64,000 nt of DNA from Burkholderia pyrrocinia (lineage in GTDB: Bacteria; Pseudomonadota; Gammaproteobacteria; Burkholderiales; Burkholderiaceae). Below are positions 14,900 through 17,709 of the stretch, piece by piece. Within the stretch, counting starts at the first letter, position 1. Each line of letters begins with the position of its first letter. Both the position numbers and the translations under genes were made by a program. The notes under the pieces are model-generated. The model made no database searches, was not told the origin of the DNA, and was given only the letters and a program-made list of their open reading frames with translations. The stretch covers positions 682,001-746,000 of the forward strand of contig NZ_CP024902.1 in the NCBI RefSeq assembly GCF_003330765.1. The letters run 5' to 3'.

Positions 14900-15307
<408 letters not shown>

Positions 15308-15321
15308 GCCGTTCGAATGCG

Positions 15322-15385: not shown

Positions 15386-15808
15386 TCAGGCCGCGACGAT
15401 GTCGAACGAATGCGTGAGTTCGGCCGTCTTCGCGATCATGATCGACGCGGAGCAATACTTGTCGTGCGACAGGTTGATCGCGCGTTCGACCGTGGCCGGG
15501 TTCAGGTTGCGGCCGGTAACGGTGAAGTGGAAGTGCACCTTCGTGAACACCTTCGGATCTTCGCTCGCGCGCTCGGCCTTCAGCGTAACCGAGCAGCCGG
15601 TGACTTCCTGGCGGCTCTTCTTCAGGATCAGCACGACGTCGTAGGCCGTGCAGCCGCCGGTGCCGAGCAGCACCATTTCCATCGGGCGCGGCGCGAGGTT
15701 ATGGCCGCCGCCTTCGGGTGCGCCATCCATCGTGACGAGATGCCCGCTGCCGGTCTCGGCGGAAAACGCCATGCCGTCCTGGCCCATCCAGCTTACTTTG
15801 CATTCCAT
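15386..15808 (-). CDS. OsmC/Ohr-family protein (YhfA-like)
   Basis: A 140-residue protein of the OsmC fold. Both conserved cysteines are present, C53 in GTGGCTAYDVV and C119 in HDKYCSAS, as in thiol-dependent peroxidases that reduce organic hydroperoxides. The overall pattern (MECKVSWMGQ ... TMDGAPEGGG) resembles the YhfA subgroup, whose true substrate is not established. ATG at 15808 is chosen; upstream in-frame codons lack similarity. It is convergent with rnpB, and the AT-rich intergenic region with a small RNA lies behind it. Confidence 0.88.
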   Translation of the reverse strand: MECKVSWMGQDGMAFSAETGSGHLVTMDGAPEGGGHNLAPRPMEMVLLGTGGCTAYDVVLILKKSRQEVTGCSVTLKAERASEDPKVFTKVHFHFTVTGRNLNPATVERAINLSHDKYCSASIMIAKTAELTHSFDIVAA

Positions 15809-16002
15809 GCTTGCACTCCAGCGTTGCCTGATTCGGATTCGATCCGGCATTGTAGCCCGCTGCGCAACGGCCGGCTGATGCACTGCACGACGTGCAACGC
15901 CGGCGCTGCGTGAGCGGCGTGCCGAACGGCAATTTCCCTTCTGATTTTAGGGGTTTTACTCTAGGTGAGGTCGATTTCCGATCACGCTGGATGATTGCAA
16001 GC

Positions 16003-16087
16003 AATTGATTTCATGTGGAAAATCAATTTTCTCGGCCGCTCACTCAAAATTTCGCATTATGGTGTTTGATTTCGCAATGCAAATTTT
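16003..16087. promoter_or_regulatory. Two dyads in the AT-rich region upstream of the candidate small RNA
   Basis: AATTGATTT/AAATCAATT (16003-16011 and 16020-16028, 8-base spacer) is a perfect repeat. AAAATTTCGCATT/AATGCAAATTTT (16046-16058 and 16076-16087) is near-perfect with one bulge and ends two bases before the -35 box. The stretch 15900-16120 is strikingly AT-rich for this genome. These look like activator or repressor sites, with the second placed for an activator touching RNA polymerase. Confidence 0.5.
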
Positions 16088-16088
16088 C

Positions 16089-16117
16089 TTGTGGTGTCGG
16101 CGACACGTTCGTATAAT
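16089..16117 (+). promoter_or_regulatory. Sigma-70 promoter of the candidate small RNA
   Basis: TTGTGG (16089-16094) and a perfect TATAAT (16112-16117) are separated by the ideal 17 bases. No reading frame lies downstream on this strand before the terminator at 16186, so the transcript should be a short RNA starting near 16124. Confidence 0.7.
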
Positions 16118-16123
16118 GCGTCT

Positions 16124-16215
16124 CATTGGTTGTCGCGCTGCGGCAACCTCCGCATGTCTCCTCCACCCTCCTCCTGAGGTGGATTAAGCCCGAACCAGCC
16201 GTTCGGGCTTTTTTT
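16124..16215 (+). ncRNA. Candidate trans-acting small RNA with CU-rich loop
   Basis: A transcript of about 92 bases is predicted from the promoter and terminator. It would fold into three hairpins: GGTTGTCGC/GCGGCAACC (16128-16148), TCCACC/GGTGGA (16162-16183) with the loop CTCCTCCTGA, and the terminator. The loop and its flank are rich in CCTCC, complementary to Shine-Dalgarno sequences. Small RNAs with C-rich loops (for example the CcsR/cuckoo RNAs of alphaproteobacteria) are known to regulate by such loops; homology is not claimed. It lies between the OsmC gene and the convergent DUF1090 gene. I know no gene name for it. Confidence 0.65.
16186..16215 (+). terminator. Intrinsic terminator of the candidate small RNA
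   Basis: Perfect 10-bp stem AAGCCCGAAC/GTTCGGGCTT, 5-base loop, and a run of seven T. It reads mainly rightward; on the other strand the tail is only two T, so it would be weak for the convergent DUF1090 gene. Confidence 0.88.
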
Positions 16216-16260
16216 CGTCCCATGCAAACATCGGCGTGCGGCTTGCGCGCCCCGGCATCG

Positions 16261-16566
16261 TCACGCGGGCTGTTGTGCGGCCGGCTGCGATGTCGCGTCG
16301 GGCGGCGTGCCGCGCGAGCGTGCGCCGGGCGCCGGCGCGTGGGCGGCCGACGCATGGCCGTGGCCGCGTGCGCAGAAGTGGCGTACGCGTTCGCGCACCG
16401 CGCGCAGACGGGCGACGCGATCCTCGGCATGGGCGGTCCGGGCTTCGGCAATGCGTGCATCGAGCGTGTCGAGCTTGGCTTCGCAGCCGGCGCGGGCGGC
16501 GACGGCAGGCGCCGCGGCGGCCAGCAGCGCGGCCGCGAAGAAGGGCGTAAGTCGTTGTTTCATCAT
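16261..16566 (-). CDS. DUF1090-family (YqjC-like) periplasmic protein
   Basis: A 101-residue exported protein. Residues 1-23 form a signal peptide ending AVAA/ARA, followed by the short DUF1090 core GCEAKLDTLDARIAEARTAH and RVARLRAVRERVRHFC with two cysteines, predicted as a helical hairpin. The C-terminal third is a low-complexity alanine/proline/histidine tail. E. coli YqjC is a similar small exported protein of unknown role. Two adjacent ATG codons (16566, 16563) are equally possible starts. It has no codirectional partner. Confidence 0.72.
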   Translation of the reverse strand: MMKQRLTPFFAAALLAAAAPAVAARAGCEAKLDTLDARIAEARTAHAEDRVARLRAVRERVRHFCARGHGHASAAHAPAPGARSRGTPPDATSQPAAQQPA

Positions 16567-16877: not shown

Positions 16878-17306
16878 ATGAAGACGTTTTCCGCAAAAGC
16901 CCATGAGGTGACGCGCGAATGGTACGTGATTGACGCGACGGATAAGGTTCTCGGCCGTGTTGCCAGCGAAGTGGCACGCCGTCTGCGCGGCAAGCACAAG
17001 CCTGAGTTCACCCCGCACGTCGACACTGGTGATTTCATCATCATCATCAACGCGAGCAAGTTGAAGGTCACGGGCAACAAGACTCTGGACAAGAAGTACT
17101 ACCGTCACTCGGGCTACCCGGGCGGTATCTATGAAACGACGTTCGGCAAGATGCAAGAACGCTTCCCGGGCCGCGCGCTCGAGAAAGCGGTCAAGGGCAT
17201 GCTGCCGAAGGGCCCGCTCGGCTACGCGATGATCAAGAAGCTGAAGGTCTACGCAGAAGCGACGCATCCGCATTCGGCTCAACAGCCGAAGGCGCTCGAG
17301 ATCTAA
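16878..17306 (+). CDS. rplM: 50S ribosomal protein L13
   Basis: A 142-residue early-assembly protein of the large subunit, the same length as in E. coli. The conserved [20 protein letters not shown] and [13 protein letters not shown] blocks are present. The open frame starts 34 codons earlier, but ATG at 16878 ([11 protein letters not shown]) is the family start. It is followed after 10 bases by rpsI, the usual L13-S9 operon, and driven by the promoter at 16727-16756. Codon use is less GC-biased than in its neighbours, as expected for a highly expressed gene. Confidence 0.98.
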
Positions 17307-17316
17307 GGGGACCCAC

Positions 17317-17709
17317 ATGATCGGTAACTGGAACTACGGTACGGGCCGCCGCAAGAGCGCAGTCGCACGTGTCTTCATCAAGGCAGGCAAGGGCGACATC
17401 GTTGTCAACGGCAAGCCCATCGCTGACTACTTCTCGCGTGAAACGTCGCTGATGATCGTGCGTCAACCGCTGGAACTCACGAACCACGGCCAGACGTTCG
17501 ACATCAAGGTGAACGTGACGGGCGGCGGTGAAACGGGTCAGGCAGGCGCAGTGCGCCACGGCATCACCCGTGCACTGATCGACTACGATGCGACGCTGAA
17601 GCCGTCGCTGTCGACCGCAGGCTTCGTCACGCGCGATGCACGTGAAGTCGAGCGTAAGAAGGTCGGTCTGCGCAAGGCACGCCGCGCCAAGCAGTTCTCG
17701 AAGCGTTAA
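17317..17709 (+). CDS. rpsI: 30S ribosomal protein S9
   Basis: A 130-residue small-subunit protein whose basic C-terminal tail reaches toward the P-site tRNA. The sequence starts [18 protein letters not shown] and ends [12 protein letters not shown], the diagnostic SKR tail. Length equals E. coli S9. AAGGGGA precedes the start. It is the second gene of the rplM operon and is closed by a strong terminator. Confidence 0.98.

Follow-up and report, generated by a model that had tools for sequence, protein, structure and literature searches.

A predicted NcS27 orthologue in Burkholderia pyrrocinia and a tandem DNA element in common with the aceE promoter

The locus and the identity of its small RNA

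The window, by which we mean the whole 64,000-nucleotide stretch of Burkholderia pyrrocinia DNA that was analysed, holds a small RNA gene in the interval between an OsmC-type gene on one side and a 101-amino-acid frame on the other, beyond which lie rplM and rpsI. From their own sequences we take the frame at 15386–15883 to belong to the OsmC family and those at 16878–17306 and 17317–17709 to be rplM and rpsI. The 101-amino-acid frame (16261–16566, minus strand), between the RNA and rplM, has a signal-like start and was found by tblastn at 36 of 50 loci of the genus and 0 of 30 others. A bacterial RNase P RNA of class A (RF00010, 289.4 bits) lies at 14900–15311 on the plus strand. The main features are listed below; synteny counts refer to 80 fetched loci of the NcS27 type.

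15386–15883, minus: OsmC-family gene, synteny marker, beside the RNA at 78 of 80 loci
16050–16083, plus: tandem element TTTCGCATTATG-N8-TTTCGCAATGCAAA, 20-bp period, about −74 to −41 from the predicted start
16089–16094, plus: −35-like hexamer TTGTGG, 3 of 6 positions as in TTGACA
16112–16117, plus: −10 hexamer TATAAT, exact in 47 of 50 genus and 13 of 28 other-genus orthologues
16124–16215, plus: predicted NcS27 orthologue, 92-nt primary transcript, ends placed from the promoter and the T-run
16128–16148, plus: 5' hairpin of the minimum free energy (MFE) fold, outside the Rfam model, predicted leader lost on processing
16155–16164, plus: anti-Shine–Dalgarno (anti-SD) site 1, TGTCTCCTCC, with 16155–16161 unpaired in the MFE fold
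16155–16216, plus: RF02278 match (cmscan), about the processed double-hairpin form
16162–16183, plus: middle hairpin TCCACC/GGTGGA, whose loop (16168–16177) contains anti-SD site 2
16186–16215, plus: intrinsic terminator (stem 16186–16210) and T-run
16878–17306, plus: rplM, synteny marker, beside the RNA at 75 of 80 loci
17317–17709: rpsI, synteny marker, after rplM

A preliminary description had presented the RNA as undescribed-looking and had placed it in no named family; both statements were wrong. The Rfam search that it proposed returned RF02278, whose covariance model matches 16155–16216 with 74.4 bits, above the gathering score of 50 (E = 3.5 × 10−13; model positions 1–64 fully matched), and the layout of that family is present, with two hairpins, a C-rich first loop and a terminator. 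RNAs of RF02278 are named 'double-hairpin' or 'toxic' sRNA. One of them, NcS27, has been mapped and tested in Burkholderia cenocepacia: in strain J2315 it is 92 nt long, its 5' end mapped by dRNA-seq and its 3' end by RACE (PMC4603805, PMC5688073, available text), and its neighbours are BCAL3348a and BCAL3349, the three genes running → ← → (PMC4603805, available text). This is the B. pyrrocinia arrangement seen from the other strand; here, too, the immediate neighbours on the osmC side and on the rplM side are both encoded on the opposite strand. The copy in B. cenocepacia NCTC13227, which we take to be the type strain J2315, differs at 2 of 92 positions and is surrounded by osmC, a small gene, rplM and rpsI. 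Because length, gene order and orientation agree, and the NCTC13227 copy is nearly identical with the same neighbours, we identify the RNA at 16124–16215 by comparison as an orthologue of the already described NcS27. The likeness extends to the 5' part plus double hairpin and to the C-rich anti-SD stretches; the one difference that we noted in this copy, which is known from its sequence, is a loop end GA that allows two extra pairs within the loop. That the RNA is instead anti-hemB (RF02837), or belongs to a new family with no relation to NcS27, has a negligible probability: RF02837 also aligns, at 16159–16216, but reaches 25.9 bits against its own gathering score of 49.5, and the RF02278 score and the NCTC13227 match refute both identities.

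RF02278 was found in 137 of 150 genomes sampled from the family (133 over the cut-off) and in 0 of 14 controls, and the search of Burkholderia genomes advised in the preliminary description matched, at the DNA level, the 186-bp region in all 65 genomes of the genus that were available. Further chosen sets comprised 40, 30, 30 and 22 genomes. J2315 has four RF02278 RNAs, ncS27, ncS03, ncS05 and ncS62 (PMC4603805, PMC5688073, available text), and in the B. pyrrocinia genome four copies exceed the cut-off and two fall short of it. The RNAs at L001, L002 and L004 of this genome share the TGTCTCCTCCA start and the hairpin-and-terminator layout of NcS27; they are short forms without the tandem element described below, and are not paired here one to one with ncS03, ncS05 and ncS62. 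The two sub-threshold sites (L005, G000:C2:311804-311872, 43.7 bits; L006, G000:C1:1858740-1858792, 32.2 bits) are possibly diverged or decayed copies.

Fold, conservation and promoter

The MFE fold of 16124–16215 consists of three hairpins (−39.8 kcal/mol, z = −4.68; none of 200 shuffles was as stable). All three hairpins proposed from hand folding are in it, the middle one exactly at 16162–16183, and the strong terminator is confirmed by its stem and T-run; a conserved transcript of about 92 bases thus holds, with ends predicted in this strain and with the 92 nt of B. cenocepacia ncS27 as a parallel. The middle loop is CTCCTCCTGA, closed by TCCACC/GGTGGA; in this strain the MFE fold adds two pairs inside the loop. 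CCTCC does recur, at 16147–16151 and 16160–16164, each occurrence lying partly within a stem.

To assess conservation we aligned 78 orthologues (50 from the genus and 28 from other genera), namely the 80 fetched loci (L037–L116) without L087 and L090, which have neither osmC nor rplM. All 50 genus orthologues and 27 of the 28 from other genera carry TGTCTCCTCC unchanged, and the loop proved as invariant as anticipated, CTCCTCC being kept in 50/50 and 26/28. The preliminary description was right to see here a regulatory RNA with a C-rich loop, expected to pair with Shine–Dalgarno sequences and conserved across Burkholderia. Compensatory changes were counted in 53 distinct sequences of the 78, after duplicates were collapsed and L085 (core not found) and L089, L095 and L096 (−10 only far upstream) were excluded; L091 and L093 were retained though they lack the 5' hairpin. 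Of the three stems in which they were to be sought, two show them. Both-side changes occur at 5 of 8 counted pairs of the 5' hairpin (92.6% of cells paired) and at 2 of 10 pairs of the terminator stem (98.5%), but the middle stem hardly varies, with 4 of 6 pairs never changing, and covariation among orthologues is uninformative for it because it is nearly invariant. Over the whole structure, 32 cells carry a both-side change, compared with 6.7 in shuffled and 3–16 in slid controls; counted by pairs instead, 7 have such a change, and one slid control (at −2) has 7 as well.

Because of its 5 compensated pairs of 8 and its 92.6% of cells paired, the 5' hairpin is very probably a selected structure that was left out of the Rfam model. 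Its compensation would mark the long form of the RNA as selected, a point absent from the model and from the available text of the literature examined. The hairpin is not universal, which fits a leader that is normally cut off: the usual hairpin does not form in the MFE folds of L078, L098 and L115, and L095 and L096 have an enlarged 5' arm. At L089, L091 and L093, from three genomes of one genus (G030, G047 and G009), it is apparently lost and a TATACT starts 12 nt ahead of the TGTCTCC core, as would suit direct transcription of the short form; L085, a fourth locus of that genus, retains hairpin-like sequence.

The promoter had been called ideal. Its −10 hexamer is perfect, but the −35 hexamer matches at only 3 of 6 positions and reaches 4 of 6 in just 23/50 genus and 6/28 other-genus orthologues; a promoter scan of the window does not list it, and matches this good at 17-bp spacing number 3 in the window against 3.96 expected by chance. 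The bases CTTG at the −35 position (16088–16091) are found in 50/50 genus and 26/28 other-genus orthologues. Conservation, rather than the −35 match, thus supports the predicted NcS27 promoter. A palindrome between the two hexamers, GTGTCGGCGACAC (16094–16106), was considered as an operator and rejected, as it is not conserved among orthologues. Many other-genus orthologues (for example, L071, L077 and L082), and also L087, carry CTTGCRTYGCACAA over the −35 region (about 16088–16101); it occurs in part before the paralogues L001 and L002 and is decayed in NcS27 of Burkholderia. Nor is the RNA strictly without reading frames, as had been stated: no long frame is confined to it, but there are short ones, a 7-codon frame from the ATG at 16154, which some orthologues lack, and a 15-codon frame from a TTG at 16130, and a TTG frame from 16126 traverses the RNA and continues beyond its end.

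A tandem element before NcS27 and aceE

Upstream of the promoter, orthologues in the alignment of 78 share TTTCRYATTATG-N8-TTTCGYAATGYAAA with a 20-bp period. An exact search of the 8-Mb genome finds the tandem pattern a single time; a search of the whole genome with up to three mismatches added two places, the interval between aceE and a sensor kinase gene (on both strands) and C1:2894930. The former (L118 1501–1534, G000:C1:2443581-2443614), flanked by aceE and by a divergently oriented gene for a PAS sensor kinase, is a long, palindromic form of the tandem element; the latter (L120 1501–1534, G000:C1:2894930-2894963) is a weaker match with three mismatches and a matrix score of 19.3. A single dyad, TTTCRYAWTRYGAAA, tried as the element, is absent from the genome.

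With a matrix that combines both kinds of site, the NcS27 site scores 52.1 and the aceE site 47.1, compared with 18.0 for the best other site in the 1.2 Mb (15%) of this genome that the matrix scan covered, and 77 of the 80 NcS27-type loci score over 20 (L078, L094 and L096 are below). No tandem element is found at the paralogue loci L001, L002 and L004, nor, with a matrix from NcS27 sites only, at 30 other RF02278 loci (L007–L036; best score 1.6). As the combined matrix includes aceE sites, only the NcS27-only matrix, built from the 75 sites, among 77, whose pattern score was 20 or higher, tests aceE independently. All 30 aceE promoters scanned, which come from 9 genera, have a match of 24.2–41.6 with it, and the remainder of those loci does not exceed 0.4. 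The own-genome aceE site is the discovery case, having come from the pattern search itself, and the 30 promoters are not 30 independent events, because the genomes are relatives. The sites are approximately 110–153 bp upstream of the point at which the AceE match begins; on their other side, away from aceE, all 30 genomes have a divergent sensor kinase gene.

In a more distant set we scanned 20 of 27 kinase loci, from 18 genomes, with the combined matrix. The element is present (35.3–44.7) in all 16 genomes where aceE adjoins the kinase, making 46 of 46 scanned genomes with that arrangement (30 + 16), and the two kinase matches without aceE beside them have no good site (G001, 4.3; G019, 17.5). 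Sites before the RNA in this set are strong in G002, G024, G026 and G043 (39.6–48.7) and in three AT-rich g18 genomes (41.7–42.4) and weak in G085 (26.3), G080 (19.0), G004 (16.5) and G001 (19.5); in G037 and in the g12, g21 and g22 genomes scanned, the scores do not exceed those of shuffled sequence. For these counts, cores were not found in L263 and L264, and G006, G015 and G036 were scanned only at copies that do not adjoin rplM.

The conserved stretch is AT-rich and lies just upstream of the −35 position, as would a mere UP-like element whose likeness to the aceE site arose by chance, and AT-rich genomes do score high in shuffles (to 38.1, L254). We consider this explanation improbable, because nothing comparable comes up among the sequences scanned: apart from the reverse strand of the site itself, the second place in the window scores 8.3, the best in the 1.2-Mb sample 18.0, C1:2894930 19.3 and the best of 400,000 random positions 9.1, and the match recurs in every one of the 30 aceE promoters while the rest of those loci stays at or below 0.4.

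The tandem element and its sharing with aceE appear to be new, whereas the RNA itself was already known; the available text of the literature examined (including PMC5343134) contains no description of the element. A common upstream motif is mentioned for three of the four double-hairpin RNAs of J2315, and given in a supplement (PMC5688073, available text), so part of the tandem element may be known; CTTGCRTYGCACAA may be that motif. Our analysis thus corrects the claim of an undescribed RNA and adds to NcS27 the compensation in the 5' hairpin and the element shared with aceE.

Candidate regulators and proposed function

The tandem element predicts a regulator common to NcS27 and pyruvate dehydrogenase. 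That one DNA-binding protein with few other targets controls both the RNA and the pyruvate dehydrogenase operon in all Burkholderia, and in many but not all other genera of the Burkholderiaceae, we rate at even chances. Should that protein prove to be the redox- or carbon-sensing response regulator whose gene lies next to aceE, carbon catabolite repression in these bacteria would have NcS27 as its RNA arm, with a logic similar to that of CrcZ in Pseudomonas. The 2017 paper calls the driver of double-hairpin RNA accumulation unknown (PMC5688073, available text), and the element common to NcS27 and aceE makes the driver directly testable.

The nearest candidate is encoded next to the site. On one side of the element in this genome is aceE and on the other the gene of an 830-amino-acid PAS/HisKA/HATPase kinase, which is followed by a 212-amino-acid protein with response regulator and GerE domains. 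The pair resembles AccSR/BphPQ, a candidate likeness that leaves sequence identity aside, and accSR-like genes have been reported near ace genes, with a role in carbon catabolite repression (PMC6456745, available text). In favour of binding by this receiver–GerE regulator, with NcS27 as its RNA arm, the kinase adjoins aceE in 46 genomes, all of which have the element, and G001 and G019, where it does not, have no good site. We nevertheless hold it unlikely, because the two sides come apart elsewhere. The three g18 genomes have a high site before their single RF02278 RNA (shuffle maxima 11.9–24.3 in these AT-rich genomes) and no orthologue of the regulator, the best match having 31–32% identity and the kinase match at most 18 bits; conversely, the regulator and the aceE element are both present in four g12 genomes and in G037, where the RNA lacks a site. 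Because of this disagreement, our claim is limited to a common regulator and does not extend to the response regulator. An unlinked regulator, for example of the IclR or GntR type, that senses a central metabolite such as pyruvate would accommodate g18, which keeps the site without the two-component genes, and at the aceE sites two 15-bp quasi-dyads, TTTCGNATTATGAGA...TCTCATAATNCGAAA, make up a long palindrome, which may resemble IclR-type operators. This alternative, for which we have no candidate gene and for which literature on IclR with TTCGCAT gave nothing useful, we put at somewhat below even.

Favouring a common regulator, whichever protein it may be, we consider it highly probable overall that the RNA is an NcS27 orthologue that represses carbon-metabolism mRNAs by pairing at their ribosome-binding sites and is controlled through the tandem element together with pyruvate dehydrogenase. 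An NcS27 of approximately 92 nt would be transcribed from a sigma-70-type promoter with a weak −35 and probably cut near 16155 to a double-hairpin form of approximately 61 nt. Under nutrient shortage its C-rich stretches would pair with ribosome-binding sites and repress mRNAs, mainly those whose products take up or degrade carbon compounds, and a DNA-binding protein at 16050–16083 and at the aceE promoter would co-control the RNA and pyruvate dehydrogenase. Occlusion of the Shine–Dalgarno sequence, which would block translation, is the best-supported mechanism, and we infer it for this strain from the following work on J2315. There, ncS27 has a processing site that yields the short double-hairpin form, and its C-rich stretches are complementary to ribosome-binding sites (PMC5688073, PMC4603805). 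Overexpression attenuates growth and antisense silencing of the C-rich region raises it; 55–80% of the predicted interactions of double-hairpin RNAs lie around start codons; and ncS27 rises in biofilms (9.7-fold), stationary phase (2.4), starvation (3.9) and glucose medium (4.3) (all PMC5688073). A review credits NcS27 with repression of genes for carbon-source uptake and catabolism (PMC10987360), and a paper cited in PMC4603805 reports that the RF02278 family inhibits growth when cloned in Escherichia coli; each of these sources is taken from its available text. Toxicity need not be the role of NcS27.

The further claim that this genome has many target mRNAs with strong GGAGG sites finds weak support in a crude count. 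At least 8 contiguous complementary bases occur upstream of 5 of 743 naive gene starts, compared with 0 of 743 in a control region; with at least 6 bases the numbers are 30 and 16, and at least 9 contiguous bases occur upstream of none of the 743. True starts may show better complementarity, because those counted are naive.

Similar RNAs are known from other bacteria. S17 of Bordetella pertussis has a C-rich region described as homologous to that of NcS27; RNase E cuts its longer precursor to a 67-nt form, which pairs at ribosome-binding sites and directly represses a target (PMC11722255, available text). NmsRA and NmsRB of Neisseria meningitidis have three stem-loops and two anti-SD stretches, like NcS27, and repress enzymes of the TCA cycle; they differ in being sibling RNAs under RelA control, and we liken their way of working without claiming membership of one family (PMC5362039, available text). 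The NmsR siblings are arranged in tandem (PMC5688073, available text), whereas the six RF02278-like places in the B. pyrrocinia genome lie far apart.
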